Assembly (NCBI RefSeq): GCF_000766945.1
Contig: NZ_KN266210.1
Span: 123,922-187,921 of the forward strand
Length of the DNA stretch: 64,000 nucleotides
Direction of reading: 5' to 3'
From: Cellvibrio mixtus subsp. mixtus J3-8
GTDB lineage: Bacteria > Pseudomonadota > Gammaproteobacteria > Pseudomonadales > Cellvibrionaceae
In this document: positions 21,821-63,294 of the stretch, one piece after another
Numbering within the stretch: the first letter of the stretch is position 1
Layout of the letters: every line of letters begins with the position of its first letter
Translations under genes and position numbers: made by a program
Notes under the pieces: model-generated
The model's input: only the letters and a program-made list of their open reading frames with translations
Databases searched by the model: none
Told to the model about the DNA's origin: nothing

Positions 21821-22530
21821 TTATCAGGATTAATTTGTTTAAACAGTTCGCGGCTATGCAATGGCTTACTGCCCAGCAAAGGCTTGAGCATACGCCGCGC
21901 CAATTTTTTTGCTGCCTGGCGAGTTGCAGGCGCGGAATAATTTCCCGCAGCGATAGCCAATATCCATTCACCTTTTAACAAATAGGCTTCCGGAATATCC
22001 GGCGCAGCGGCATAAAATCCTTCCTGGATGTGGCAATCATAAAACCCTTGCGCCTCTATTTCACATCCATTGCGCACATCCAGCGTAAAATCCAGCGCAT
22101 AACCCAGTTCTTCCAGCAAGCGAAATTCAAAACCGCGCAACAGGGGTTCTATATCCAACTCTTGCTGCAATGCAGCTAGGCACTGCTCATACGCGAAGAA
22201 TAAACCGTTATGTCGATCCATTTCCGGCAACAATCGTACTAACAATTCATTGAGGTAAAACGCAGAATATAAATGATTGCCTTTGAGCGAGAGAAAATGA
22301 TTATCCGCTTCAAAGCTGGTAAGCAGTTTCATGTCCGTTTTGCCTTGCCAACACACTAACAAACGGCTGAAAGGATTAAGCAATTGTCGCTTCGGGGTTT
22401 TGGTTTTACGCACACCGCGCGCGATAGCAGTGACGCGCCCGAAATCGGGCGTGAGCAAATCAACTAATAAACTGGTATCACGGTAAGGACGGGAATGAAG
22501 GATATATGCTGGCTGGAGATCAACACGCAT
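21817..22530 (-). CDS. recO: DNA repair protein RecO
   Basis: RecO works with RecR to load RecA onto gaps covered by single-strand-binding protein. The 237-residue product has the N-terminal OB fold (QPAYILHSRPYRDTSLLVDLLTPDFGRVTAIARGVRK) and the helical C-terminal region (LYSAFYLNELLVRLLPE, FEFRLLEELGYALDF). The zinc-binding cysteines found in some RecO proteins are not all evident. It lies 9 bp after era, at the end of the lepA-lepB-rnc-era operon, and converges on gacS. Confidence 0.95.
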   Translation of the reverse strand: MRVDLQPAYILHSRPYRDTSLLVDLLTPDFGRVTAIARGVRKTKTPKRQLLNPFSRLLVCWQGKTDMKLLTSFEADNHFLSLKGNHLYSAFYLNELLVRLLPEMDRHNGLFFAYEQCLAALQQELDIEPLLRGFEFRLLEELGYALDFTLDVRNGCEIEAQGFYDCHIQEGFYAAAPDIPEAYLLKGEWILAIAAGNYSAPATRQAAKKLARRMLKPLLGSKPLHSRELFKQINPDN

Positions 22531-22539
22531 CTGTGACGA

Positions 22540-23457
22540 TTAAAAATCATTGTAGCCGAGGCTGCGTAACGCCCGCTCGTCATCCGACCAGCCAGATTTT
22601 ACTTTCACCCAGAGCTTGAGCATGATTTTCATTTCAAATAATTTTTCCATATCGATACGGGCTTCGGTACCAATCAATTTGATACGCGCCCCCTTATCGC
22701 CAATCAGGATTTTTTTCTGTCCATCGCGCTCAACCAGAATCAGTGCTGAAATATTGAGTAAGTTTCCTTCCTGCTTAAACTCCTCAATTTCAACAGCCAT
22801 TTCATAAGGCAATTCATCACCGAGCTGGCGAGTAATTTTTTCACGCACGATTTCAGCGGCCATGAAACGCGAACTACGATCAGTAATTTGATCTTCCGGA
22901 TACATATGAATGCCTTCCGGTAAACGCTCGATAATTAATTGTTCCAGGCGATCCAGGTTATTGTTACGCAACGCCGAGATAGGGACAATTTCTGCAATAT
23001 TTAATTTTTCAGCCAATTGCTGTAAATGCGGCAACAAGGTTTCTTTATCTTCTATTTGGTCGACTTTATTGACCGCCAGAATCACCGGGCTGTTAATGTG
23101 TTGGAGCTTTTCTGCAACAGCTTCATCTTCTTCGGTCCAGATAAAGCGATCCACCACAAACACCACAACATCCACATCTTTCATTGCAGTAGTAGCAGCG
23201 CGATTCATGTAACGATTAATCGCCTTTTGCTGACCAAGGTGCATTCCCGGTGTATCCACAAAAATAATTTGTACACCACCTTCAGTTTTAATACCAACAA
23301 CCGCATTGCGGGTGGTTTGCGGCTTACGTGAAGTGATACTGATTTTTTGCCCGAGAATATGATTGAGCAACGTCGACTTACCCACGTTAGGCCGGCCAAC
23401 AATGGCAACATAGCCACAACGGGTATCGGTGTTTTCAGTATCGGAATCAAAAGTCAT
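22540..23457 (-). CDS. era: GTPase Era
   Basis: Era is a GTPase for 30S ribosome maturation that binds 16S rRNA with a KH domain. The 305-residue product has G1 GRPNVGKS (21-28), G3 DTPG, G4 NKVD and G5 SAL, and then a C-terminal KH domain ending in [19 protein letters not shown]. The GxxG of the KH domain is visible (GDKGARIK). It follows rnc, the usual order, so rRNA processing and ribosome assembly genes are co-transcribed. Confidence 0.97.
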
Positions 23458-23512
23458 AAGCGAGTACTACAGAAAAAATAAGGATTAAAAATAAAAAAAC
23501 AGCGGAAGCAGA

Positions 23513-24193
23513 TTAGTCAATTTTCAGCTGTTTAAGCATCAATACCGCAGATTGCTTTTCCGCTTCTCTTCGGCTGGATGCAGAAGCCTGGGTCGGTTTT
23601 TTGGCGATAGCTACCCGGCATTCAATCGTAAATACTTGTGCATGACCTTCACCACCAACATTGATTACAGCATATTCCGGCAACGGTTGGCGTTGGGCCT
23701 GTAAATATTCCTGCAGGCGTGATTTGGAATCCTTGGCGCTGGTATCAATGCCGATTGCATCCAAACGAGAAGCAAACCAGGTTAATACCCGCTCGCGGCA
23801 TATTTCCAAACCGCGTTCGCTGTAAATCGCACCAATAATCGCCTCTATACTATCTGCCAAAATGGAGTCGCGACTTCGCCCCCCCGATTTCAACTCGCCC
23901 TCACCTAAAATCAGGTAATCCCCCATTTCAAATTCACGGGCTAATTCAGCCAGGGTTTCACCCTTAACCAGTTGGGAACGCAAACGGCTGAGCTGCCCTT
24001 CCCGCACTTCAGGAAACCGGCTGAATAATGCTTCGCCAATGATAAAATTTAAAATGGAATCGCCCAGAAACTCAAGGCGCTCATTATTAGTAGCCCCATG
24101 GCTACGGTGGGTCAACGCCAGTTGCAACTGGCGCTGGTTTTCAAATTGATAGCCAAGACGTTCTTCAAGGCGCTGGTATTTAAGGTTTTGCAA
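23513..24193 (-). CDS. rnc: Ribonuclease III
   Basis: RNase III cleaves double-stranded RNA, including the rRNA precursor. The 226-residue product has the signature ERLEFLGDS at 38-46 with the catalytic acidic residues, a second acidic cluster DSIEAIIGAIY, and a C-terminal double-stranded-RNA-binding domain (DSKSRLQEYLQAQ...). It lies 2 bp after the DUF4845 gene and is followed by era, so all are likely one transcript. Confidence 0.97.
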   Translation of the reverse strand: MQNLKYQRLEERLGYQFENQRQLQLALTHRSHGATNNERLEFLGDSILNFIIGEALFSRFPEVREGQLSRLRSQLVKGETLAELAREFEMGDYLILGEGELKSGGRSRDSILADSIEAIIGAIYSERGLEICRERVLTWFASRLDAIGIDTSAKDSKSRLQEYLQAQRQPLPEYAVINVGGEGHAQVFTIECRVAIAKKPTQASASSRREAEKQSAVLMLKQLKID

Positions 24194-24195
24194 AA

Positions 24196-24630
24196 TTACT
24201 TGGTCGCGGCATTAGTTACAGGTTTGCAACACTGCGTTGGCTTGGTGCTATCAAGATGATTCTTGAATACCAATACCAAATCAATGTTGTACAACAACGG
24301 GACACGTGTTTCGTAATCAACGGTAATTACCGCTTTTTCTGCTTCACGTTCAATCTTGATGTTTTTAGTTGGCCCTTCACTACGGACATTATTAATCATG
24401 TAGAAGTTATTAAGTTTTTTAGTGATTTCTGCATCCGTCATCTCCTCAATTTTTTCACCGCCGGAGACCAGCGAACGCAATGCAGATTCTACATAACGAT
24501 TCTCTGCATAAAGGGGGACAACTTTAAAAGCGAATAACAGAAAAAAACCGGCAACAGCAATAACAAGGGCCCATTGCAACATCCCCAAACCACGCTGATG
24601 TTTAAGTGATTTCATCTGAATAGCTTTCAT
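24196..24630 (-). CDS. DUF4845 family membrane protein
   Basis: This 144-residue protein has one N-terminal transmembrane segment (about 17-38, GMLQWALVIAVAGFFLLFAF) and a small extracytoplasmic domain (about 40-125). It matches the DUF4845 proteins that sit between lepB and rnc in many gammaproteobacteria. The N terminus, with a Gly then a hydrophobic stretch, recalls type IV pilin-like segments, but a canonical prepilin cleavage site is not clear. The function is not known. The conserved position suggests a link with the signal peptidase or envelope, which is only inference. Confidence 0.85.
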   Translation of the reverse strand: MKAIQMKSLKHQRGLGMLQWALVIAVAGFFLLFAFKVVPLYAENRYVESALRSLVSGGEKIEEMTDAEITKKLNNFYMINNVRSEGPTKNIKIEREAEKAVITVDYETRVPLLYNIDLVLVFKNHLDSTKPTQCCKPVTNAATK

Positions 24631-24683
24631 TCGCTTGGTCTCCGCAACAGAAAATGGTCCTGCATTTACGCTAGCACAAAAAC

Positions 24684-36957: not shown

Positions 36958-38577
36958 TCAGGAACTACAGGATAACATGGAGCAACCGGCTTTATGTCGC
37001 GCCCATTCCGGGCGTTTAACAAAATAATCCTGATGTTCGGGTTGTTCATCATAAGGTTTGCGCAGGATATTCAAGAGTTTTTCCACTTCGGAATAATCAC
37101 CCAGTGTGGCTTTATCAATAGCCTGTTGCGCGAGGTAATTGCGCAGCACATATTTAGGGTTCACTGCATTCATGCGCGCAACTTTTTGCGCATGGGTATT
37201 ACCGGTCAATACATAATCCTGTTGCAAGCGCGCCGCATACGCTCGCATCCAGTTTGCCAAATGTGTCTCGATATGTTCATCAGGTGTTGAGTAAAAACTT
37301 TCGCGCACAATATCAACACAGCGGGCATCCGCATAATGAGGAATGTCATCAACATTCAACTGCGCAAGGTTGCGATAAAAAATGGTCATATCGGTTTCAA
37401 TTAACGGTAAAAATGCCAGCAACTGCTCCGTCAACGTTTGATCCTGCGCAGGATCAAATTCCTTTAACCCCAATTTTGCAGCAGCATCGCGTTGCGCACA
37501 ACGTTCATATTCCACGCGATAATTTTCCAGCGCCGCTTGCAAAGGTTCTACCTCATTAATCAGCGGATAAATTGCGTTGCCCAGTTGCGCCAGATTCCAG
37601 AGCGCAACGCGTGGCTGGTTACCATAGCGATAGCGACGCCCCTGGGCATCAGTGGTATTAGGAGTCCAATCCTGGTCATAACCCTCAAGCCACCCATAAG
37701 GACCATAATCGATAGTTAACCCGAGAATTGACATGTTGTCGGTATTCATCACGCCGTGAACAAAACCAACACGCATCCAATGCGCCATTAATTGTGCAGT
37801 GCGAATACAAATTTCATTAAACCAGTGCAGATAATCTGCTTTACCAAATTCACTCGTTGCAGCAGGAAATAACTCGGAAAAATCCGTGCGCAAAGTAAAA
37901 TCGGTAAATTGTTTTAACAAAACAATATCGTTACGCGCTGAAAAAATTTCGAAATTGCCGAAACGGGTAAATGTGGGTGCCACACGGCAAACAATTGCAC
38001 CCGGCTCCAGTTGCGGATTACCATCGTAAAACATATCGCGCCTTACCATCTCGCCGCTGCTCACCAGGCTTAAAGCACGAGTGGTAGGGACACCTAAATG
38101 ATGCATTGCTTCACTGCATAAAAATTCGCGCACAGAAGAACGCAATACGGCGAGGCCGTCGGCAGTGCGTGAATAAGGAGTAGGCCCTGCACCTTTTAAT
38201 TGTAGTGTCCAATGATCACCTTGATGGTTACGCACTTCGCCTAAATTAATCGCGCGCCCGTCACCCAATTGCCCTGCCCAATTACCAAATTGATGGCCAC
38301 CGTACACACAGGCGTGGGGGTCCATTCCCGCCAGTAATTCATTACCGCCAAAAACTTGTGCAAATTGAGGATCAGAAAAAACCGTTGCAGGTAAATCCAG
38401 TAACGCAGCGACTTCACTAGCGCCCGCGATTAACTGCGGATTTTTTACCGGCGTCGGCGTTACGCGTGAATACACCGCATTGGTGACTTGACGACGATAA
38501 TTTTCCAGTTCCGGATCAGCGGGTAATTCACGCACCAGGCGATTGTCGAACACCAGCTCCTGCAAGGATGAAATCAT
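36958..38577 (-). CDS. selO: Protein adenylyltransferase SelO (YdiU/UPF0061)
   Basis: SelO is a pseudokinase-fold enzyme that AMPylates proteins. The 539-residue product has the family blocks YGGHQFGNWAGQLGDGRAI, ELQLKGAGPTPYSR-like (LQLKGAGPTPYSRTADG), VRRDMFYDG, and VHGVMNTDNMSILGLTIDYGPYG with the metal-binding residues. The C terminus has Cys-x3-Cys (CSMLSCSS). No selenocysteine TGA is involved. The start codon shares one base with the gloA stop (TAATG), so translation is probably coupled to gloA. Confidence 0.95.
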   Translation of the reverse strand: MISSLQELVFDNRLVRELPADPELENYRRQVTNAVYSRVTPTPVKNPQLIAGASEVAALLDLPATVFSDPQFAQVFGGNELLAGMDPHACVYGGHQFGNWAGQLGDGRAINLGEVRNHQGDHWTLQLKGAGPTPYSRTADGLAVLRSSVREFLCSEAMHHLGVPTTRALSLVSSGEMVRRDMFYDGNPQLEPGAIVCRVAPTFTRFGNFEIFSARNDIVLLKQFTDFTLRTDFSELFPAATSEFGKADYLHWFNEICIRTAQLMAHWMRVGFVHGVMNTDNMSILGLTIDYGPYGWLEGYDQDWTPNTTDAQGRRYRYGNQPRVALWNLAQLGNAIYPLINEVEPLQAALENYRVEYERCAQRDAAAKLGLKEFDPAQDQTLTEQLLAFLPLIETDMTIFYRNLAQLNVDDIPHYADARCVDIVRESFYSTPDEHIETHLANWMRAYAARLQQDYVLTGNTHAQKVARMNAVNPKYVLRNYLAQQAIDKATLGDYSEVEKLLNILRKPYDEQPEHQDYFVKRPEWARHKAGCSMLSCSS

Positions 38578-38960
38578 TACTCAATACCTAATAATTCAAT
38601 TTTGTAACCATCCGGATCTTCTACAAAAGCAAGAATGGTAGTGCCGTGCATCATCGGGCCTGGTTCACGCGTAATTTTGCCACCGGCAGCACGAATTTTT
38701 TCGCAAGTTGCATATACATCACTACAACCCAGCGCGATGTGCCCGTAACCTTTGCCAAGGTCGTAGAATTCAACCCCGTAGTTGTACGTGAGCTCAATCA
38801 CCGTGTTGGTTGCTTCATCACCATAACCAATAAACGCAAGGGTAAATTGTCCTTCCGGATAATCATGCTGGCGCAAGAGCTTCATGCCCAGCACTTGAGT
38901 ATAGAAGTTGATGGATTTTTGCAGGTTGCCTACTCGCAACATAGTATGAAGGATACGCAT
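38577..38960 (-). CDS. gloA: Lactoylglutathione lyase (glyoxalase I)
   Basis: GloA isomerises the methylglyoxal-glutathione hemithioacetal to lactoylglutathione. The ATG at 38960 has AAGGA a few bases upstream and gives 127 residues. An ATG six bases further up is too close to that site. The product starts [13 protein letters not shown], with His in the metal site, and has [20 protein letters not shown] and a terminal [13 protein letters not shown]; the His/Glu ligands of the nickel-type enzyme are present. It heads a gloA-selO-djlA string. In Pseudomonas, as I recall, gloA is next to argG, but here it is 11 kb away. Confidence 0.96.
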
Positions 38961-39097
38961 ACTCATCCTTTATCGACAAATAAAAATTGGTTGTAATGCT
39001 GACAATAAATCAAACATGAATACCGGTGCATTTTACAATACACCGGCGTAGAAGAGACTTAATTTCGAGTTACGTATTGGTAGAAATTGCTGTGGAC

Positions 39098-40816
39098 CTA
39101 AAATCGCTGCTGAGCACCAATCGTAAGTTGATATTTATCAACGCTGTCTTTTGCCGCGAGCGGAGTGGCGATATCAACATGTACCACATTCCCAATACGC
39201 ACTTTACTGGAGCTTAAACGCAAACCGAAACCAACGTTGCTCAGGGTTGGACTGTAACCATATTGCTCCAATCCCCAAGCTTTGCCCACATCGAAGAAAG
39301 CCACAGCGCCCATACGCAAAATATTGAACACGTGGATATCAGAAAAGTAACGGCGCTCAATTGTGAAGACATAACTTTTTTCACCGCGCTGGAAATCCGT
39401 TGGGTAGCCGCGCAACCCGGTCATATCGCCCACGGTTAATTCTTCATATTGAGCAAGATCCTGGCCCAAGCTGTAGTTAAGCCCCATGTACCAGCGACGC
39501 TTGTCATCATCAAAATAATTATACGCAAAGCTGGCTGTCATTATTGCACTGTTGCTATTTGCTAAACGGTTGTGATGACGACCATCAAGGGTGATTGAGG
39601 TTTCAAAAATATGCTTCGCATCAAAATCCATAATGTAACTGTATTTGCCGATGTAGCGATAAACATCATCAGGATTATCCAGACTGGTACCGGCATAACC
39701 TAAACGAAATACCAGGTTGTGCCCTAACGCCACATCTTCAGGACGCTGGATTTGATTGATATTTTTAAAAACACCGTAGCGATTTTGCAGATATTGATAT
39801 TCAACCCAGGGATAAACCAATTTACGCGGCCCGGGAATTGGCATGAGCGTTTCATCGGTGGGATAAAATTTATCCTCCTCATTGGAAATGCCAACAACCC
39901 AGCGTTGGGTATGGTCTTCCTGGATATCCGTTGCCACACCAAAAAACATCCGGTTTGACATGCTTTGGTGACGGAATTCATTTATCTCTTCATCCATATG
40001 GCGAATAGGTAATTCCTGGCTGACATCCTGCGTGTAAAAACCGGCGGACCAAGGCGTTTCCAGGGAATAAAATGGATGGGAGATATCAACAATAGTATCC
40101 CGTCCATCGCTGGTATCAGCAAAATAAAGTTTGGTTGCAATTTGTGAATTAAAAATATGCGGGTTGCTGAATTCGTATGACACCAGATTGCGCTGGGTAT
40201 TTTCTTCGTAGCCAATAGTGAGGTTTGTACCTGTACCAAATACGTTACCATCGGAAATCGCAAGACCTGAATTGGTTCCTTCAGATTCCTTGCTCACGGA
40301 GAATTGTGGTTCCAGTGCCCAGGAATCCTGGGTAACTACCATTAGATCTACCTGATCATCACACACCGTCACCGGCAAAATATACGCATTAGTCAGGTAA
40401 GCACGTTTACGCAGTATACGTTCACTTTCCTGGACCTTTTTAATATCCAGCAAATCATTTTCGCTGAATAATAATTGAGCTTTAATGGTTCCGGGGCGGG
40501 TATTGACGTGCAGTTTATTTAAAAATAAATAAAGGGAATTGTTTTCGTCAGGATCATCCTTGTTAAAAACAGAAATAGTATTGTATTCAATATGGCGAAT
40601 TTTTTTTCCCGCCAATGAATCAAAAATTTTTGAATCTATACGGGTATTTTTTAAATCATCGATTTTTTCGCGGTAACTGCCAAATGGTTTACAGCTAGGG
40701 TCAGTCTCTGGCGCATCTTCAGCTTGCGCGTTTACAGCCAGCATGAAAAGAGAGAGTGCGCTGACACGCAACGCAGATAATCCTTTTGGAAGCCCGACAT
40801 ACGGGATTCTAATCAT
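39098..40816 (-). CDS. Omp85-like outer-membrane beta-barrel protein with a POTRA-type domain
   Basis: This 572-residue protein has a signal peptide (cleavage near NAQA-E). A region with POTRA character follows at about 65-160 (KKIRHIEYNTISVFNKDD...ILRKRAYLTNAYILPVTV), then a barrel rich in alternating aromatic residues. The conserved Omp85 element LRGYPTDFQRGEKSY lies near residue 480, and the protein ends in a terminal Phe. BamA is longer with five POTRA domains, so this is not BamA; TamA or another surface-antigen D15-type protein is nearer. No partner (such as tamB) is adjacent. The role is unknown, and secretion or assembly of outer-membrane proteins is only a family guess. Confidence 0.82.
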   Translation of the reverse strand: MIRIPYVGLPKGLSALRVSALSLFMLAVNAQAEDAPETDPSCKPFGSYREKIDDLKNTRIDSKIFDSLAGKKIRHIEYNTISVFNKDDPDENNSLYLFLNKLHVNTRPGTIKAQLLFSENDLLDIKKVQESERILRKRAYLTNAYILPVTVCDDQVDLMVVTQDSWALEPQFSVSKESEGTNSGLAISDGNVFGTGTNLTIGYEENTQRNLVSYEFSNPHIFNSQIATKLYFADTSDGRDTIVDISHPFYSLETPWSAGFYTQDVSQELPIRHMDEEINEFRHQSMSNRMFFGVATDIQEDHTQRWVVGISNEEDKFYPTDETLMPIPGPRKLVYPWVEYQYLQNRYGVFKNINQIQRPEDVALGHNLVFRLGYAGTSLDNPDDVYRYIGKYSYIMDFDAKHIFETSITLDGRHHNRLANSNSAIMTASFAYNYFDDDKRRWYMGLNYSLGQDLAQYEELTVGDMTGLRGYPTDFQRGEKSYVFTIERRYFSDIHVFNILRMGAVAFFDVGKAWGLEQYGYSPTLSNVGFGLRLSSSKVRIGNVVHVDIATPLAAKDSVDKYQLTIGAQQRF

Positions 40817-49988: not shown

Positions 49989-50030
49989 ATTTTGTCTCAC
50001 TTAACCGGTATGAGGATTGATATTTATCAA
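49989..50030 (-). promoter_or_regulatory. FNR/ANR box and -10 element of the ccoNOQP promoter
   Basis: TTGATATTTATCAA at 50017-50030 matches the FNR/ANR consensus (TTGAT-N4-ATCAA) exactly. On the minus strand a -10-like CAAAAT at 49994-49989 lies where a class II activator site centred near -41.5 would place it. Anaerobic or low-oxygen induction of the oxidase is predicted. Confidence 0.85.
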
Positions 50031-55088: not shown

Positions 55089-55260
55089 TCGTTATATCCA
55101 CCACTAGAAAATAATTCGCTATTACTGCTGGAACAAAAGCTGCAATGTAACACCCATGGGCCGCTTTCCCCTATACTGCCGACCCAAATCCAGCTAAACC
55201 TGAAGCCAACACAACAAGCGACCCCAACAACATTCGTTACAAGAGAGATTGGAGCCTGCC

Positions 55261-55890
55261 ATGAGCGATTTAGAGAGCCTGTTTGCCGCCAACGTTAAAT
55301 GGGCTGAAGATATTAAACGGGAAGACCCCGAATTTTTTTCCACCCTGGCCAAACAACAAGCCCCGGAATATTTATGGATCGGCTGCTCCGACAGCCGTGT
55401 ACCCGCCAACCAGATTCTCAACCTGGCACCGGGCGAGATTTTTGTGCACCGCAATGTGGCAAACGTAGTAATCCATACCGATCTGAATTGTATGACGGTA
55501 TTAAATTACGCCGTAGAATTTTTGAAAGTAAAACACGTGATGATCACCGGTCACTACGGTTGCGGTGGTGTAAGGGCAGCACTGGAAAATCGCAAACTGG
55601 GTTTAATTGATTATTGGCTACGGAATATTCGCGATGTGTATTACAACAATAAAGAGGTTGTCGATCAGTTGACGGATATGGATGAGCGAGTTAACCGTCT
55701 GTGCGAACTCAATGTAATCCAGCAAGTAGACAATATTTCACGCAGCAACATCGTGCAAAATGCCTGGTCACGCGGACAGGAATTAACCATCCACGGCTGG
55801 ATCTACGATATTCATGACGGCATCCTGCACAAACTGACACCGCCAATCGACTCTATTGAACAAATCCCCGAGCAATATCGCCTGTATTAA
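55261..55890 (+). CDS. can: Beta-class carbonic anhydrase
   Basis: The enzyme interconverts CO2 and bicarbonate with zinc. The ATG at 55261 with GGAG upstream gives 209 residues; a TTG at 55249 is rejected. Zinc ligands and the active-site Asp are in WIGCSDSRVPANQI and GHYGCGGVRAAL. The protein has the expected LNLAPGEIFVHRNVAN block and ends in IPEQYRLY. It is convergent with phhB across 21 bp and divergent from sbcB. Confidence 0.96.
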   Translation: MSDLESLFAANVKWAEDIKREDPEFFSTLAKQQAPEYLWIGCSDSRVPANQILNLAPGEIFVHRNVANVVIHTDLNCMTVLNYAVEFLKVKHVMITGHYGCGGVRAALENRKLGLIDYWLRNIRDVYYNNKEVVDQLTDMDERVNRLCELNVIQQVDNISRSNIVQNAWSRGQELTIHGWIYDIHDGILHKLTPPIDSIEQIPEQYRLY

Positions 55891-56298: not shown

Positions 56299-58314
56299 AT
56301 GAGATCCATCAGGCAAGATCAAGCTGGCACAGTGTCAGGCGACATAAGCCAACGCACGCGTTGGCTCAAACTCGCCAGCCTTGCCTTGCCGATAGTGTTA
56401 TTCATTTTTATGGTGAGCGCCCTCGAGTTGGCGATCAAGGGCAACCATAACCAGTTGCGCAACCAGCAATTGCAACAATTAGGTAAAGATATTGCCGACC
56501 TCAGCCGTTTGCTGGAGCAGGAACTTAACGCGTCCATTTATTTAGTCAACGGTTTGCAAGCTTATGTGGAATCCAAATCCGGCAATCTGCGTGCGGAAGA
56601 AATTGCCCCCTGGCTTACCAATTTGCAAGCGCGCGGCCGCCATATTCGCAATATCGGTATAGCACCGGACAATCGTATCGCCTATATGTTCCCGCTTACA
56701 GGCAATGAGAAGGCCGTGGGGCTTTATTATCCAGACAATCCCAAGCAATGGCCGGACATTGAAAAAGTAATTCAAACACGCAGGGCCAACCTGGTTGGCC
56801 CGCTCGCCCTGGAGCAAGGGGGTAACGGGCTTATTTATCGCTCGCCAGTATTTTTAGAGAATGATCACTACTGGGGAATTATCAGTGTTGTTATCAATGC
56901 CGATACTTTATTCAAACGATTATTTACCTACGCGGATGAGCATAGCTTAGTGCTCAATATTAGCGATCCGGATTCCGGCAAAATTGTGTTAGCCAGCAAT
57001 GCCGTTATGGGCGCGATACAAACGCGGCAAATTATGGAAGTACCGGGACATCGCTGGGAGATTACCGGTGCAGTAGCACCCCTCCCCATGAATTCAACGT
57101 TAATCAGTTTACGAATTGGTGGCTGGCTGGTCGCTTTGCTCACCACCATTTTACTCGCTCGCTTTTTGCGCTCCATCAAAGCACACGCTCAAACCCTGCT
57201 CGCCCTGCGCGAACACCAGGAGCGGTTTGCGCGCATGTTTACCACATCGCCACAAGGCCTCGCACTGCTTGATGATGAGGGTCACTGGATTGAAATAAAT
57301 ACCAGCTTCTGTTTGATGCTGGGTTACACCGCAGCGGATATCCACCAGGCCCGCTTAATTGATCTATTTACTCCGGAAGCCCGGGTGCAGCTGCTTAATC
57401 ACATGCAGGATATTCGCAATGATTACGTATCGCACACCGATCACAGCCGGCAATTTGAGGCACGTTTAATCCGTTCCGACGGGCAATGGTTAACGAGCTT
57501 TATCACCCTTGGTATTTGTTATCGCAGCAATGAAGAAACACACTGGTTGTTACAAATGCTCGATATCAGTGAACGCACGCGGCTGGATCAATTAAAAAAT
57601 GAATTCGTTTCTATCGTCAGCCATGAATTGCGCACGCCTCTCACCGCGATTATGGGGTCGCTGAAATTAATGGCTAGTGGAAAACTGGAACACCATGGCG
57701 GCACCGAAAAAATTCTACAAATTGCCGTGCAAAACAGCGAAAAGCTGGCGCGACTTATCAATGATTTGCTGGATATGGATAAATTGATTGCCGGCAAAAT
57801 GGAATTCGATTCCACCATACAACCTTTATTGCCTTTGATCGAAAAAGCGCTGGAAAGTAATCAATATTACGCGCAGCAATATCAAGTCAGTTATCGTTTA
57901 CAAGTACCCTCCACATCGCCGTTGGTAAATGTTGATGCATTGCGCTTGCAGCAGGTGCTCACCAACCTGTTATCCAACGCCGCAAAATTCTCACCCCCCC
58001 ACAGTGAAATCCTGATCTCGTTATTGCTCGAAGCGGATCGGGTACAAGTGACAATACAAGATCAGGGAACAGGAATCGCCAAAGATCAACAGCACAAATT
58101 ATTTAAAAAATTTTCCCAAATCGATTCCTCATCTACCCGCCAAAAAGGCGGAACAGGTTTGGGCCTTGCAATTAGCAAGGAATTAATTGAACGAATGGGC
58201 GGCAGTATCGGCGTCAATTCGAGCCCCGGCCAGGGCAGTTGCTTTTATTTCAGCTTGCCGCGCGTTGTTGTGGAGGAAGGGGAATTCCCTGCGCCGAATA
58301 TCCGGAAAGGCTAA
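56299..58314 (+). CDS. CHASE-PAS sensor histidine kinase
   Basis: This 671-residue membrane kinase has TM1 (about 26-44), a periplasmic CHASE-like domain (about 70-240, LEQELNASIYLVNGLQAYVES, HIRNIGIAPDNRIAYMFPL), TM2 (about 272-292), a PAS domain (about 305-425), and HisKA with SIVSHELRTPLTAIMG (His442). An HATPase domain follows with N box NLLSNAAKFSP, G1 QDQGTGIA and GGTGLGLAIS. All catalytic boxes are intact. It has no receiver domain, and no response-regulator gene is adjacent. It is followed 110 bp later by a degenerate kinase-like gene on the same strand. Ligand unknown. Confidence 0.93.
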   Translation: MRSIRQDQAGTVSGDISQRTRWLKLASLALPIVLFIFMVSALELAIKGNHNQLRNQQLQQLGKDIADLSRLLEQELNASIYLVNGLQAYVESKSGNLRAEEIAPWLTNLQARGRHIRNIGIAPDNRIAYMFPLTGNEKAVGLYYPDNPKQWPDIEKVIQTRRANLVGPLALEQGGNGLIYRSPVFLENDHYWGIISVVINADTLFKRLFTYADEHSLVLNISDPDSGKIVLASNAVMGAIQTRQIMEVPGHRWEITGAVAPLPMNSTLISLRIGGWLVALLTTILLARFLRSIKAHAQTLLALREHQERFARMFTTSPQGLALLDDEGHWIEINTSFCLMLGYTAADIHQARLIDLFTPEARVQLLNHMQDIRNDYVSHTDHSRQFEARLIRSDGQWLTSFITLGICYRSNEETHWLLQMLDISERTRLDQLKNEFVSIVSHELRTPLTAIMGSLKLMASGKLEHHGGTEKILQIAVQNSEKLARLINDLLDMDKLIAGKMEFDSTIQPLLPLIEKALESNQYYAQQYQVSYRLQVPSTSPLVNVDALRLQQVLTNLLSNAAKFSPPHSEILISLLLEADRVQVTIQDQGTGIAKDQQHKLFKKFSQIDSSSTRQKGGTGLGLAISKELIERMGGSIGVNSSPGQGSCFYFSLPRVVVEEGEFPAPNIRKG

Positions 58315-58423: not shown

Positions 58424-60700
58424 ATGACAGAGTCGCCACAGAATAATGACGTGCCGATGGAGCCTGCCGATGAGTGGACGCTCACACAACAGCAAGTCCA
58501 TTCGCTTTACCATAGCTTGCCAGTCTCTTTGCTCTCATCCATTGTGATCGCCTTGATTCTCAGTTTGTCCCACTGGAAAGTCATTGGGCAAGCAGAAATA
58601 ATTCTATGGAATTTATTATTAGGCAGCACCCTGCTCGCGCGCTTGACCCTATGGATTTTCTGGCAAAACACCTGGCAACTTTATTCAGCCCGTTTCTGGT
58701 TGTGGTGTTTTCGTGTTGGTGTCTGGCTGACCGGAGCAGCCTGGGGTACTACAGCGCTACTGTTATTTGCCGATAACAATGCGATTTACCAGGCTCTACT
58801 CGCTTTTTCACTCGCCGGTGTCGCCGCCGGTTCAATGACATCCCTCACTGCCGATAAATATTCATCATTGGGATTTGTCATTCTGGCAATAACACCACTC
58901 AGCCTGTTTATTTTTTTGGACGAAGGTCCCACAGCGATTGCCATGTCGAGCATGACATTCCTGTTTATATTTTTTGTGATTGCCAGCAGCACCCGCACAC
59001 GGCGCAATATGGAAGAGCAAATCCAGAAAAACCAGCATTTGCTCAAACTCACCACAGAACTCAACCATAAACAGCAGCTGGAAAAAATTATTAACAATGC
59101 CCAGTCAATTTTTATTAGCGATAACGACATTAAATCCGCACTACAAAATCTGTTATGGGAAACCTTGCCTGCCACCAATAGCGAGCAGGGATTCATCGGC
59201 CAGGTTATGCACGCCCCCAATGGCACCCCCTACATGCGCGCACTGATTTTTGGCAGCACGCAAAAAGATAATCGCGATCTGGAAAATTTTCGGATAACCC
59301 ACCTGCCGGAAAATGGTGAATATCGCAACCTGGATAATTTATTTGGCATGATCATGCAATCGGAGCGGCCTGTTATCAGTATTAACCTGGCGCGCGATAT
59401 GCGTGCCGGGACCTTACCGGAAGGCCATCCTAAAATTCACAATTTTATTGGTATTCCTATCTTTAGCGGGCGCGAACAAATTGCGATTCTCGGCCTGGCC
59501 AATTCACCTGGTGGTTATCACCTCGACGATGCCACCAAACTGGAACCCATCCTGAAAACCATTGCGCAATTTGTGCAAACAATGAACCATGAACAACGCC
59601 ATGCCCGTGATCGCGCCGCCCTGGAGGCCACCACGCAACAAACCCAAACTATTTTAAATGATATTGCTGATGGCATCATTACCATCGATAAGCGCGGTAT
59701 TATCCAATCCTTCAATCACGCTGCCGAAACTATTTTTGGTTACCGTGCCCGACAAATTATTGGCAAAAGTATCAGCGCGCTTATGCCTGATCCCTATAAA
59801 TCCATGCACGACGAATATATTCGCAACCATCTCCTCACCGGCAAAAAAAATATTTTGGGAATAGGCCGCGAAGTGATCGGGTTGCGTCGCAATGGCAATC
59901 AATTCCCCATGGACCTCATGGTGTCGCGAGTATTTCAAAACGGTGAGCCAGTGTTTATTGGCATTATCCGTGATATCACTGAAAAAAAGCGTGCCGATAA
60001 CTTACGTAACCAATTTATTACCAGTGCCAGCAAAGAAATTCTTGGCCCCCTGAATCTGATTAGCGAAGCTATTTTGCGCCTGAAAAACAAAGAGCAAAAT
60101 AATTTATCGACGCCCATAAAAAATGTGGTGGATATTGCCCATACCAATAGTTTGCGCTTGCAGCAACTGATGCACGATTTGATCGAAATTCAAAATATAT
60201 CCAAAGGCGATATCAACTTCCGTTTGGAAACCACACCGATTCTGCCACTCCTGGAAGAAGTGGTACGGAGGAACAAAACCTTTGGAGATATTTACCAAAA
60301 TAGAGCGACTATTACTGCCAGCACAGATGACCTGACTATTCATATCGATATCACCCGTTTTTACCAGGCAATGACGCAGCTGCTGCAATACGCATTTAAA
60401 AACTCACCGCCTGACACAGAATTGGTTATTCGCCTTAATGAAGAGCGCAGCCGGGTTAATATCGGCATCCATTTTAATAATCGCGGGCTAACGGATGAGC
60501 AACGTAAAAACCTGTGCGAGCACTTTGGCAATGCAACGGAAAATGAGAAACAGGATTACATTGAACCAGGCGATGTGGGAATTGCAATTGCAAAAGAAAT
60601 CATCGAAAAAATGCATGGAAAAATCCATGTCGAGAACAAAGAAGAATTTTGCTACTTTCAAATAGATTTTCCGCGCGCGATCAACCAGTTCCTAAGCTGA
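58424..60700 (+). CDS. Membrane GAF-PAS protein with a FixL-like PAS and a degenerate histidine-kinase core
   Basis: The start at 58424 gives 758 residues; in-frame ATGs at 58391 and 58361 are alternatives. There are about six transmembrane segments (34-190), a coiled coil, a GAF domain (about 225-395), and a PAS S-box (about 410-525). The PAS carries the FixL-type pattern DPYKSMHDEYI...GIGREV with His462 and Arg482. A HisKA-like region (525-595) reads SASKEILGPLNLI, so Lys537 replaces the phospho-acceptor His. The HATPase-like region (640-755) lacks the N, G1 and G2 motifs (LLQYAFKNSP, FNNRGL, GDVGIAIA). The fold seems kept but catalysis is unlikely. It converges on cheB with 7 bp between stops. 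Confidence 0.88.
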   Translation: MTESPQNNDVPMEPADEWTLTQQQVHSLYHSLPVSLLSSIVIALILSLSHWKVIGQAEIILWNLLLGSTLLARLTLWIFWQNTWQLYSARFWLWCFRVGVWLTGAAWGTTALLLFADNNAIYQALLAFSLAGVAAGSMTSLTADKYSSLGFVILAITPLSLFIFLDEGPTAIAMSSMTFLFIFFVIASSTRTRRNMEEQIQKNQHLLKLTTELNHKQQLEKIINNAQSIFISDNDIKSALQNLLWETLPATNSEQGFIGQVMHAPNGTPYMRALIFGSTQKDNRDLENFRITHLPENGEYRNLDNLFGMIMQSERPVISINLARDMRAGTLPEGHPKIHNFIGIPIFSGREQIAILGLANSPGGYHLDDATKLEPILKTIAQFVQTMNHEQRHARDRAALEATTQQTQTILNDIADGIITIDKRGIIQSFNHAAETIFGYRARQIIGKSISALMPDPYKSMHDEYIRNHLLTGKKNILGIGREVIGLRRNGNQFPMDLMVSRVFQNGEPVFIGIIRDITEKKRADNLRNQFITSASKEILGPLNLISEAILRLKNKEQNNLSTPIKNVVDIAHTNSLRLQQLMHDLIEIQNISKGDINFRLETTPILPLLEEVVRRNKTFGDIYQNRATITASTDDLTIHIDITRFYQAMTQLLQYAFKNSPPDTELVIRLNEERSRVNIGIHFNNRGLTDEQRKNLCEHFGNATENEKQDYIEPGDVGIAIAKEIIEKMHGKIHVENKEEFCYFQIDFPRAINQFLS

Positions 60701-60707
60701 AAACCGG

Positions 60708-61775
60708 TTACAAACGATTGCCACTGCCCAATGCTTTTATTTTCTCCAGCAGCACTTGCCCCATTTTATCCAACGCAACAATCTGATCGACACCACCCAA
60801 TGCCACCGCTTCTTTAGGCATGCCGTACACCACACAACTGGCCTCATCTTGTGCCAGCGTATAACCGCCCCGATTGCGAATAGCCAGCATTCCCCTGGCG
60901 CCATCTTTTCCCATCCCGGTGAGCAATACGCCCACCACATTCTTACCACCGATCTGCGCTACCGATTCCATCATGATATCCACGGCAGGCCGGTGGCGAT
61001 GTACAGGTTCAGCATCGGAAAGTTTTACACGATAATCCGCACCGGAACGCACTACCACCAAATGATGGCCACCCGGAGCCAAAAAAGCATGCCCCGGCAA
61101 AATACGCTCACCGCCTTTGGCTTCCACTACGTGCAAGCGTGTGGTTTTATTTAAACGTTCAGCGAACGTACGCGTAAATCCTGGCGGCATATGTTGGGTC
61201 ATTACTATACCGGGAACTGCCGCAGGCAACTGCACCAATAAATCCTTAATGGCTTCAGTGCCACCGGTAGATGCACCAATCGCAATAATTTTCTCGGTAC
61301 TTTGCAAACTTGCGGACGCCGGTAATTTTTGTTCACTGCCCAATTCCGGACGATTTTTTTTTACCAGTGGCTTTACCTTGACACCCGCTGCGGCGCGAAT
61401 TTTTTCAACTATTAACTCTGCATATTCACGAATGCCACTGGTTACCCCGAGTTTGGGTTTGGGAATAAAATCCAGCGCCCCCAATTCCAACGCACGCAAG
61501 GTTGCATCGGCCCCCTCTTCAGTCAGGGTAGAAATCATTACTACGGGAGTCGGGCGGGCGCCCATTAATTTTTCCAAAAACGCCAGGCCATCCATACGCG
61601 GCATTTCTATATCCAGCGTAATGACATCGGGTGTAAATTGATTCACCATATCGCGGGCCACATACGCATCGGGCGCTGCACCGACTAATGTCATATCCGG
61701 TGCATCATGGATAATTTCTGCCAACAAACTACGCACCAACGCAGAATCATCGACAACCAATACTTTAATCGCCAT
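60708..61775 (-). CDS. cheB: Chemotaxis response regulator protein-glutamate methylesterase CheB
   Basis: CheB removes methyl groups from chemoreceptors and deamidates Gln. The ATG at 61775 with AGGGA upstream gives 355 residues; a TTG two codons earlier is less likely. A receiver domain (about 1-120) has VLVVDDSALVRSLL, Asp55 in TLDIEMPRMDG and KPKLG. The methylesterase domain has the Ser/His/Asp triad in IGASTGGTEA, QHMPPGFTRTFAERLN and LLTGMGKDGARG. It is last in a cheR-cheD-cheB string. Confidence 0.97.
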   Translation of the reverse strand: MAIKVLVVDDSALVRSLLAEIIHDAPDMTLVGAAPDAYVARDMVNQFTPDVITLDIEMPRMDGLAFLEKLMGARPTPVVMISTLTEEGADATLRALELGALDFIPKPKLGVTSGIREYAELIVEKIRAAAGVKVKPLVKKNRPELGSEQKLPASASLQSTEKIIAIGASTGGTEAIKDLLVQLPAAVPGIVMTQHMPPGFTRTFAERLNKTTRLHVVEAKGGERILPGHAFLAPGGHHLVVVRSGADYRVKLSDAEPVHRHRPAVDIMMESVAQIGGKNVVGVLLTGMGKDGARGMLAIRNRGGYTLAQDEASCVVYGMPKEAVALGGVDQIVALDKMGQVLLEKIKALGSGNRL

Positions 61776-61808
61776 ATTCAAATCCCTGGAAATTTCAGAT
61801 GCAAAAAG

Positions 61809-62420
61809 TTAATCAAACAACTCCACGTCACCACTTTTGGGAGTGAACTTGACCCGCATACGGTATTCGCTTTCGCGATCTGTAATTGTACTGTTGTGCA
61901 GGATTTTGATTTTCTTTACCAATACTTGCCCGGTGTCGGGAAAGAAATAAACTTTACGCGGGAACTCACCAAGCAAATCCTTTGCTGTAACGGGAATTTG
62001 CTCAATCTGCAAATAATCCAGCACAAATTCCGCGTTACGCTGCCCAACATTGTTCATTATCATTCCGCGCAGGACATTGCCACCACCGAATACTTTAGCC
62101 TCCATCCGCGAACGGTTCGCGCCCATTTTTAATAAATGGTTGATCAGCAGTTCCATTGCATGAACACCATAACGCGCGGATTCGCCAGGTAAATCTGAAT
62201 TATTGGGATTATCACTGGGTAGTAAAAAATGATTCATGCCCCCCGTACCGGTGTGCTTATCTCGCAAGCAAACTGCGACACATGAACCGAGCACAGTGAC
62301 AATTAATTTGTCGCCAGCGGTAACATAATATTCACCTGGCAAAATCTTTACCGCTTGCCGCCCGAAATGACGATCAAAATAGATATTAGGGGCGAGATAA
62401 ACATTATTATCGTAATTCAT
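61809..62420 (-). CDS. cheD: Chemoreceptor glutamine deamidase CheD
   Basis: CheD deamidates Gln residues of chemoreceptors. The 203-residue product has the catalytic Cys in TVLGSCVAVCLRD, a GGMNHFLLP block with the catalytic His, and the ARYGVHAMELLINHLLKMGA and KVFGGGNVLRG segments. Its start overlaps the cheR end by 14 bp. It precedes cheB, in the same direction. Confidence 0.95.
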   Translation of the reverse strand: MNYDNNVYLAPNIYFDRHFGRQAVKILPGEYYVTAGDKLIVTVLGSCVAVCLRDKHTGTGGMNHFLLPSDNPNNSDLPGESARYGVHAMELLINHLLKMGANRSRMEAKVFGGGNVLRGMIMNNVGQRNAEFVLDYLQIEQIPVTAKDLLGEFPRKVYFFPDTGQVLVKKIKILHNSTITDRESEYRMRVKFTPKSGDVELFD

Positions 62421-63294
62421 TGGCTATCTCTGTAGCTCTGGAGCTTGTCCGTCGATAAGTTGTTTTTCCTACGAGAGATACCAAGTGGTTTGCATGGGAG
62501 AAACTTTCAGAATGACCCGCGATATACAACCCATTCGGGGCGAGTAATTGAACCATACGCTCCAATATTTTAATTTGGGTCGGCTTATCAAAATAAATCA
62601 TCACATTTCGACAAAAAATAAGATCAAATTTTCCATCCAGTGGCCAATCTTTATCCAACAAATTAATCTGACGAAAATCAATTAGCGAGCGCAGTTCCTG
62701 GATGACTTTAGCCCTACCTGAATTAGCGCCTTTTCCGCGCAGAAAGAACTGTTTCTTTTGTTCGATGCTCAGCGATTCGAGCCGTTCCATCGTGTACACA
62801 CCCGCAGCAGCAGTATGCAAAACCTGGCTATCAATATCGGAAGCAATAATCTCAACCGGAGGTGTGTAACTAGCGTAAGCATGTATAGCTGTCATAGCAA
62901 TTGAATAAGGCTCCTCCCCCGTGCTGGAAGCCGCACACCAAATCCGGCATAATTTATTCTTTCCGGACTTTTGAAGGAAATCCGAAAGTATTTGAAAATG
63001 GTGCTCTTCCCGAAAAAATGCCGTGAGATTAGTTGTTAATGCATTTATAAATTCTTGCAATTCATCTGGCGTGTGTTCGAGGTAATCCAGATAGGCCCTG
63101 AAAGAATGCAAATTCAGAAAACGTAGCCGTCGTGCCAGACGGCTATAAACCAATTGCTTTTTGCTATCTGCCAAATGAATACCAGCTTTGCGATGAATTA
63201 CTGCTTTCACCCGATTGAAATCAGCGTCTGCATACTCAAATTCGCGCCCCGAATGCGTACTCACGCTTATCATTCCCGCTGAAATTAATTTCAT
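62407..63294 (-). CDS. cheR: Chemotaxis protein methyltransferase CheR
   Basis: CheR methylates Glu residues of chemoreceptors with S-adenosylmethionine. The 295-residue product has the N-terminal helical domain (about 20-85), the TNLTAFFREEHHF block, the SAM-binding IWCAASSTGEEPYSIAM, and FDLIFCRNVMIYFDKPTQ. A longer and a shorter start are possible near 63294 and 63273. It lies immediately behind a chemoreceptor gene whose C-terminal pentapeptide can tether CheR. Confidence 0.95.
   Translation of the reverse strand: MKLISAGMISVSTHSGREFEYADADFNRVKAVIHRKAGIHLADSKKQLVYSRLARRLRFLNLHSFRAYLDYLEHTPDELQEFINALTTNLTAFFREEHHFQILSDFLQKSGKNKLCRIWCAASSTGEEPYSIAMTAIHAYASYTPPVEIIASDIDSQVLHTAAAGVYTMERLESLSIEQKKQFFLRGKGANSGRAKVIQELRSLIDFRQINLLDKDWPLDGKFDLIFCRNVMIYFDKPTQIKILERMVQLLAPNGLYIAGHSESFSHANHLVSLVGKTTYRRTSSRATEIANELR

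Follow-up and report, generated by a model that had tools for sequence, protein, structure and literature searches.

This locus raises the question of whether a FixL-like PAS domain in a Cellvibrio mixtus subsp. mixtus J3-8 protein, encoded in the same 64,000-nucleotide stretch of DNA (hereafter the window) as a cbb3 oxidase cluster, senses a gas, and through what output it might do so. The first-pass annotation had called the protein an orphan membrane protein. The membrane part of that description stood, but the label was incomplete, since the protein is built as TM-GAF-PAS-DHp-CA, the layout of a membrane histidine kinase, with kinase residues lost. Its open reading frame opens at TTG 58361 (779 aa); ATG 58424 is the likely start because the closest orthologues begin at about that point, and residues are numbered from this ATG. 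The gene and its parts are as follows.

58424..60700, + strand: gene for the putative haem-PAS pseudokinase, 758 aa from the ATG
58481..59098, + strand: N-terminal membrane domain, residues 20-225, with about six predicted helices (AF2 helices, genus conservation)
59126..59575, + strand: GAF_2 domain, residues 235-384 (Pfam PF13185, E=6e-11)
59642..59977, + strand: FixL-type PAS domain, residues 407-518 (Pfam PF00989, E=3.9e-16; PDB FixL; Foldseek)
59807..59809, + strand: His462, aligned to the haem-ligand His200 of BjFixL (PDB match)
59867..59869, + strand: Arg482, aligned to the distal Arg220 of BjFixL (PDB match)
60005..60202, + strand: degenerate HisKA/DHp, residues 528-593 ([ST][KR]EI[LI]GPLN replaces SHELRTPL; HisKA E=0.0061)
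60032..60034, + strand: Lys537 (AAA) at the position of the phospho-accepting His (alignment)
60347..60676, + strand: degenerate HATPase_c, residues 642-751 (N and G1 boxes missing, some of the F and G2 boxes retained, fold recognisable)

The GAF_2, PAS and HATPase_c matches were above the Pfam cut-off and the HisKA match was below it; no Pfam family passed the cut-off over the N-terminal membrane domain. The full-length AF2 model had a pTM of 0.37, and its whole-protein Foldseek superposition was uninformative, with a large rmsd. A promoter and terminator scan returned signals no more frequent than in shuffles.

The FixL likeness proposed by the first-pass annotation was borne out. The PAS domain was 45% identical to that of BjFixL (52 of 115 aligned residues), and the claimed distance between His462 and Arg482 was exactly 20 residues, aligned on the RHDSY and GIGR motifs of BjFixL, whose His and Arg we take to be His200 and Arg220; the title of PDB entry 1y28 names an R220A mutant. 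Comparison with FixL and EcDos structures and with the Pfam PAS profile, the checks that had been proposed, gave FixL and then DosP as the top matches by both sequence and fold, together with the PF00989 match listed above. Specifically, a phmmer search of PDB sequences ranked seven FixL entries at the top (E=2e-29 to 8.8e-26), followed by DosP (E=2.5e-13 and weaker). The residues of interest here are His462, Tyr465, Ile477, Ile480, Arg482, Leu498 and Val500, presumably equivalent to His200, Tyr203, Ile215, Ile218, Arg220, Leu236 and Ile238 of FixL. Thus the first six are kept and Ile238 is replaced by Val500, leaving the proximal His, distal Arg and hydrophobic pocket of a FixL PAS domain in place, as well as the F-helix His that marks the FixL/DosP haem-PAS cluster. 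His462, Tyr465 and Arg482 were conserved in all 13 Cellvibrio orthologues with the FixL-type PAS, which goes beyond chance.

A model of the PAS domain built from 10 native-relative sequences (pLDDT 78.2, pTM 0.70) placed the His in the helix equivalent to the F helix of FixL. When this model was compared with the PDB by Foldseek, ranks 1-30 of the 50 matches listed were all FixL or DosP/EcDos, and the FixL matches, 1d06 excepted, superposed at 1.3-2.0 A rmsd. Confidence around the His-Arg pair was moderate to low (the PAS model had block means of 79, 65 and 57, and the full model fell below 50 over residues 478-481), so the direction of the His462 and Arg482 side chains cannot be read from it. 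As a control we used the PAS domain of a kinase-intact orthologue (L016), for which FixL was still the best match, at 50 bits versus 105 here, and which also matched LOV and other domains; the PAS domain of a paralogue with both halves intact (L040) scored 93 bits against FixL. We dropped the His-Arg spacing as proof of haem. A 486-aa kinase in the same genome contains two PAS domains with a spacing of 20 that have Leu for Tyr and Tyr or Pro for Ile215; because the spacing occurs there without the other pocket residues, it is not diagnostic by itself. Sequence, fold and genus-wide conservation together suggest that the FixL-type PAS probably binds haem.

The kinase half, which the first-pass annotation had passed over and which tells the most about the protein, was a different matter. 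Judged by its sequence, the protein is a degenerate histidine kinase whose catalytic residues are gone. Its H box is TSASKEILGPL, versus STVSHELRTPL or ATVSHELRTPL in intact relatives, and the alignment places Lys537 where the phospho-accepting His would be. The N-box (LLQYAFKNS versus LLSNAAKFS) has lost its Asn and the G1 box (HFNNRGLT versus MDHGVGIA) its Asp, with the F and G2 boxes partly kept, and on these residues the active transmitter of FixL is missing. The usual phosphatase motif following the phospho-His is HExxT (ExxT); here the sequence at that place is KEILG, or ExxG. In the AF2 prediction the DHp still forms two long helices and the CA a sandwich, and the protein thus shows the two marks of a pseudo-histidine kinase, a replaced phospho-His and a persisting predicted DHp-CA fold. 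Among solved proteins, the kinase part matched the HK853 group best (57.9 bits), and the DivL structure 4q20 weakly (E=0.00067).

These losses were shared across the genus. The phospho-His was replaced in all 13 pseudokinase orthologues (by Lys in 11 and by Arg in one, L010), the N-box Asn was replaced by Y, F or C in 12, and none of the 13 had Asp in the G1 column. The new motif [ST][KR]EI[LI]GPLN was fixed in 12 of the 13, which argues against free drift, and a 10-sequence alignment of the DHp showed many invariant positions. Such a motif fits a binding surface that has been put to new use; its fixation would be unexpected under free decay. The thirteenth copy (L019:1252-3663, genome G018) carried the most decayed transmitter: its phospho-His region was unrecognisable, its N-box alignment was unsure with an Asn one column off, and Pfam reported neither HisKA nor HATPase_c at E<=0.01, although GAF and PAS were conserved.

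We searched 21 genomes of the genus Cellvibrio and found the gene in 19; it was not found in G012 or G015 at E<=1e-20 with a TM+GAF query. Thirteen of the 21 combined the FixL-type PAS with the dead kinase (in G011 the copy spans two contigs, and the PAS-kinase part alone was read). In the same gene neighbourhood, the remaining six had an intact SHELRTPL kinase and a broken His-Tyr-Arg set. The Arg was replaced by Gln in five of these and by His in one, Tyr was lost in five, and gaps fell between the key PAS residues, leaving an alignable His in two of the six. The order of genes at the locus was exonuclease, carbonic anhydrase, the CHASE kinase (where present), this gene, the Hpt-REC-REC-GGDEF gene (where present), cheB, cheD and cheR.

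55249..55890, + strand: carbonic anhydrase gene, conserved upstream neighbour and anchor of the locus in the genus
56299..58314, + strand: intact CHASE-PAS-HisKA-HATPase kinase just upstream (Pfam), a possible partner
60708..61781, - strand: cheB, convergent, anchor of the locus in the genus (Pfam)
61809-62420: gene following cheB, putatively cheD from its sequence
62407-63294: cheR, beyond cheB and cheD (Pfam)
L017:3735-5162, and the syntenic places in G003, G009, G017 and G020: Hpt-REC-REC-GGDEF gene beside the intact kinase

Carbonic anhydrase lay upstream in 12/13 pseudokinase loci and 6/6 kinase-form loci, and cheB downstream in 12/13 and 4/6, respectively; missing anchors reflect contig ends (G020, G011) or a cheB not found in the fetched stretch (G006, G018), and the G008 contig ends inside cheR.

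The two forms also separated by descent. In an rpoB tree, for which 14 of the 21 genomes had a usable row, eight pseudokinase genomes (support 96/98) and four intact-kinase genomes (97/96) formed two supported groups, and the two genomes that lack the gene fell next to the pseudokinase group. A tree of the exonuclease and carbonic anhydrase (18 rows) likewise set six intact-kinase apart from 11 pseudokinase genomes, with G018 alone on a long branch; the trees were rooted at midpoints for display only, and the tree tool warned of long branches. Because the two states correspond to two clades in the rpoB tree, and nearly so in the other, we rejected a count of 13 versus 6 as independent events: by these trees, the contrast is one clade split and not 19 events.

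Relatives of the gene suggested what came before the split. A paralogue in G014 (L040:1438-3681), 30-31% identical, elsewhere in its genome and adjoining an MCP-like gene, carries HDGYLRNYLRTGQAKILGIGREL together with SHELRTPL, so that both halves are intact. When 369 genomes of the class were searched with a FixL-like PAS profile, 118 matched at E<=1e-25. Among the 29 loci returned from outside the genus, a sample picked by score and thus biased towards such PAS domains, the His was kept in 29, the Arg in 26 and SHELRTPL in 29. Since all three of His, Arg and the kinase box survive in the paralogue and in 26 of the 29 outside relatives, the ancestral protein was probably an active kinase with a FixL-type PAS, and its sequence relatives suggest that each Cellvibrio clade probably lost one half, the catalyst in one and the sensor in its sister. 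No relative with the whole TM+GAF region was found outside the genus at E<=1e-25 among 144 genomes of the family (including the 21 of the genus) and 293 of the order, with up to six candidates scored per genome in one of these searches; the longest partial matches there covered 139-364 of 375 positions.

Conservation was distributed differently in the two forms. Mean pairwise amino acid identity in 12 pseudokinase copies (L019 omitted) was 75.7% for TM, 70.2% for GAF, 83.2% for PAS, 58.6% for DHp and 45.0% for CA, versus 68.4%, 60.4%, 59.6%, 78.3% and 61.2% in the six kinase-intact copies. The most conserved domain was therefore PAS in the former and DHp in the latter, and by this measure constraint in the pseudokinase form has moved from the kinase to the PAS. 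Mean dN/dS for pseudokinase pairs with dS <2 was 0.08 (TM), 0.11 (GAF), 0.07 (PAS), 0.24 (DHp) and 0.24 (CA), values that are indicative at most because dS is near saturation; under the same caution, TM and PAS ranged over 0.009-0.066 in close pairs with estimable dS. No pseudokinase match contained an internal stop. DHp and CA diverged faster than TM, GAF and PAS, a pattern that decay would also give.

Taking sequence, models and analogy together, we favour, at a probability of about 0.52, a reading of the protein as a haem-based gas-sensing pseudo-histidine kinase that acts by protein contact, in the manner of DivL or RetS. The cytoplasmic PAS would hold haem b, with His462 as its most likely ligand, while Arg482 and the Ile477/Leu498/Val500 pocket would read bound O2 (or CO or NO), as their counterparts do in FixL. 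A change of gas ligand at the haem would then shift the PAS and pass along a coiled coil into the two-helix DHp dimer. With Lys537 in place of His, this dimer should not be phosphorylatable in the usual way, and with the N-box Asn and G1 Asp lost, normal ATP use is probably impossible. Because the residues for usual phosphorylation and normal ATP use and the phosphatase motif are all missing, the output is most likely non-catalytic: depending on the gas state, the DHp/CA surface would bind, inhibit, activate or titrate another kinase or a response regulator. The narrower proposal, that a pseudokinase which arose by reciprocal loss in sister clades at one locus reports O2 (or NO or CO) solely through contacts of its dead DHp-CA, we put forward tentatively, at slightly short of even odds.

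Several other readings were weighed against this one. The PAS might hold no haem, serving instead as another small-molecule binder or as a dimerisation or relay module, with its FixL-like residues being inherited S-box features. The spacing of 20 in the 486-aa kinase fits this, as does Asn here at the position of Arg200 of SmFixL, which there is the partner of a haem propionate and which we take to correspond to BjFixL Arg206. As stated in the available text of PMC10765370, R200 of SmFixL binds the propionate, and R200 variants retained haem spectra. In the accessible part of a PAS survey (PMC10468136), the F-helix His is the primary haem-binding determinant of the FixL/DosP cluster, present in >9700 (60%) of its sequences and absent from 40%. 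However, the protein retains His, Tyr, Ile, Arg and Leu as a set, no solved protein comes nearly as close to it as FixL and DosP, and in the sister clade, which still has the PAS, this set is disrupted; we thus consider a haem-free PAS unlikely. About as improbable, in our judgement, is an exit of the signal through the membrane/GAF part or the PAS dimer, with the DHp/CA remnant as a passive tail. The well-conserved TM (76%) and GAF (70%) and the unreported kinase domains of L019 would agree with a passive tail, but the specific new DHp motif of 12 of the 13 copies and the many invariant positions of the 10-sequence alignment do not. A decaying, functionless relic, to which catalytic loss, the absence of the neighbouring output gene and the faster DHp/CA divergence might point, is harder still to reconcile with uninterrupted reading frames, low TM and PAS dN/dS (as qualified above) and a PAS that is the most conserved domain, and we regard it as very unlikely.

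The first-pass annotation had also linked the protein, as a FixL-like sensor, to the cbb3 cluster, and had noted that an FNR/ANR site already accounted for oxygen control. Both elements are there: Pfam identified ccoN, O, P, G, H and I in the window, and a perfect FNR/ANR-like box is predicted at 50017-50030 upstream of ccoN. A FixL-type PAS and a cbb3 cluster in one window are what a FixL-like, O2-responsive kinase controlling these genes would have in its favour. Against it, the phospho-His is absent in 13/13 orthologues, at least 12/13 lack the N-box Asn, the G1 Asp is gone, no FixJ-type protein occurs among the 30 window proteins scanned, the window scan found no FNR/ANR-like box near the pseudokinase gene, and ccoN already has its own box. 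Since the transmitter is dead by sequence, FixL-like kinase control of cbb3 is not supported, and we give it next to no credence; nothing we found in the window tied the pseudokinase gene to the cbb3 cluster or to FNR-like boxes.

Two neighbours were weighed as the partner or output of a contact-based pseudokinase. The upstream CHASE kinase was adjacent in merely 3 of the 13 pseudokinase genomes, with a clear homologue elsewhere in two more, which ruled it out as an obligatory partner. The Hpt-REC-REC-GGDEF gene adjoins five of the six intact kinases (fragmented in G020) and suggests, from its sequence, that the ancestral output was c-di-GMP. It was rejected as the output of the pseudokinase because a search of the 13 pseudokinase genomes at E<=1e-15 gave a single match, in G016 (29% identity, elsewhere in the genome). 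No partner gene conserved alongside the pseudokinase was seen across the 13 genomes. The same genome also encodes a 1246-aa MHYT-PAS-PAS-PAS-HisKA-HATPase-REC-Hpt protein (G000:C10 ~20898-24638; L205:399-4139). Its PAS was the sole other of 13 PAS matches in the genome with the His, Tyr, Ile215 and Arg residues (Val at 218), and Pfam recognised its kinase part well. Possible partners are therefore the CHASE-PAS kinase and, more speculatively, this MHYT protein.

Known systems share parts of this arrangement. FixL, the O2-sensing haem-PAS histidine kinase of Bradyrhizobium and Sinorhizobium, has the PAS of 45% identity described above and likewise joins it directly to DHp-CA, but here the kinase residues are lost, a GAF domain is added, the membrane domain is of another kind, and none of the 30 window proteins scanned is a FixJ. 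On the FixL equivalog model NF041777 the protein scored 130.1 bits and the kinase-intact orthologue L017 scored 114, both far below the cut-off of 850. The haem-PAS c-di-GMP phosphodiesterase DosP (EcDos), second best by sequence and fold, differs in that its output is an active enzyme and its distal haem ligand is Met95. DosP and FixL form one haem-PAS cluster in the available text of PMC10468136. The Caulobacter pseudo-histidine kinase DivL shares the PAS-DHp-CA order and the replaced phospho-His; according to the accessible text of PMC4211667, it acts without kinase activity, carries Tyr where the phospho-His would be, retains its N, G1, F and G2 boxes, and has PAS domains that this text does not call haem domains. 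The present protein has Lys or Arg at that site and has lost N and G1, which sets it apart from DivL orthologues.

The kinase regions of RetS (rank 50) and GacS (rank 49) were among the 50 whole-protein fold matches listed. The sensor of RetS is a periplasmic 7TMR that is not known to hold haem, unlike the putative haem PAS here. In the available part of PMC12189002, this Pseudomonas sensor heterodimerises with GacS, a model of kinase control by contact, and also siphons phosphate and dephosphorylates. A ChrS pseudokinase that evolved in Corynebacterium glutamicum is dead and still alters signalling via a paralogous kinase, as given in the accessible text of PMC9491836; it differs in being a laboratory frameshift in CA with the His kept, and belongs to a haem-responsive system. 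DivL, RetS and ChrS thus provide precedents for dead or inhibitory kinases that work through partners. No description of a haem-PAS pseudo-histidine kinase was found in the open-licence literature, among the matches listed. What is new, as judged from sequence, is the combination of a FixL-type, haem-like PAS with a dead kinase. Well-studied haem-PAS sensors of the FixL/DosP type are understood as enzyme switches; here the switch is conserved and key enzyme residues are gone, and the pseudokinase would let haem-driven movement of the coiled coil and DHp dimer be seen apart from catalysis. As a group, the Cellvibrio proteins (sensor only, kinase only, and both in the paralogue) offer a natural comparison for how pseudo-histidine kinases originate and signal.

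Lastly, FNR/ANR-like boxes with at most one mismatch numbered six in the window versus a shuffle mean of 3.85, no excess when all boxes are pooled. A second perfect FNR-like box (39128-39141) lies in the 3' end of a 572-aa open reading frame (39098-40816, - strand), for which Pfam gave nothing at E<=1e-5, and is ~160 bases upstream of a glyoxalase gene (38577-38966, - strand).
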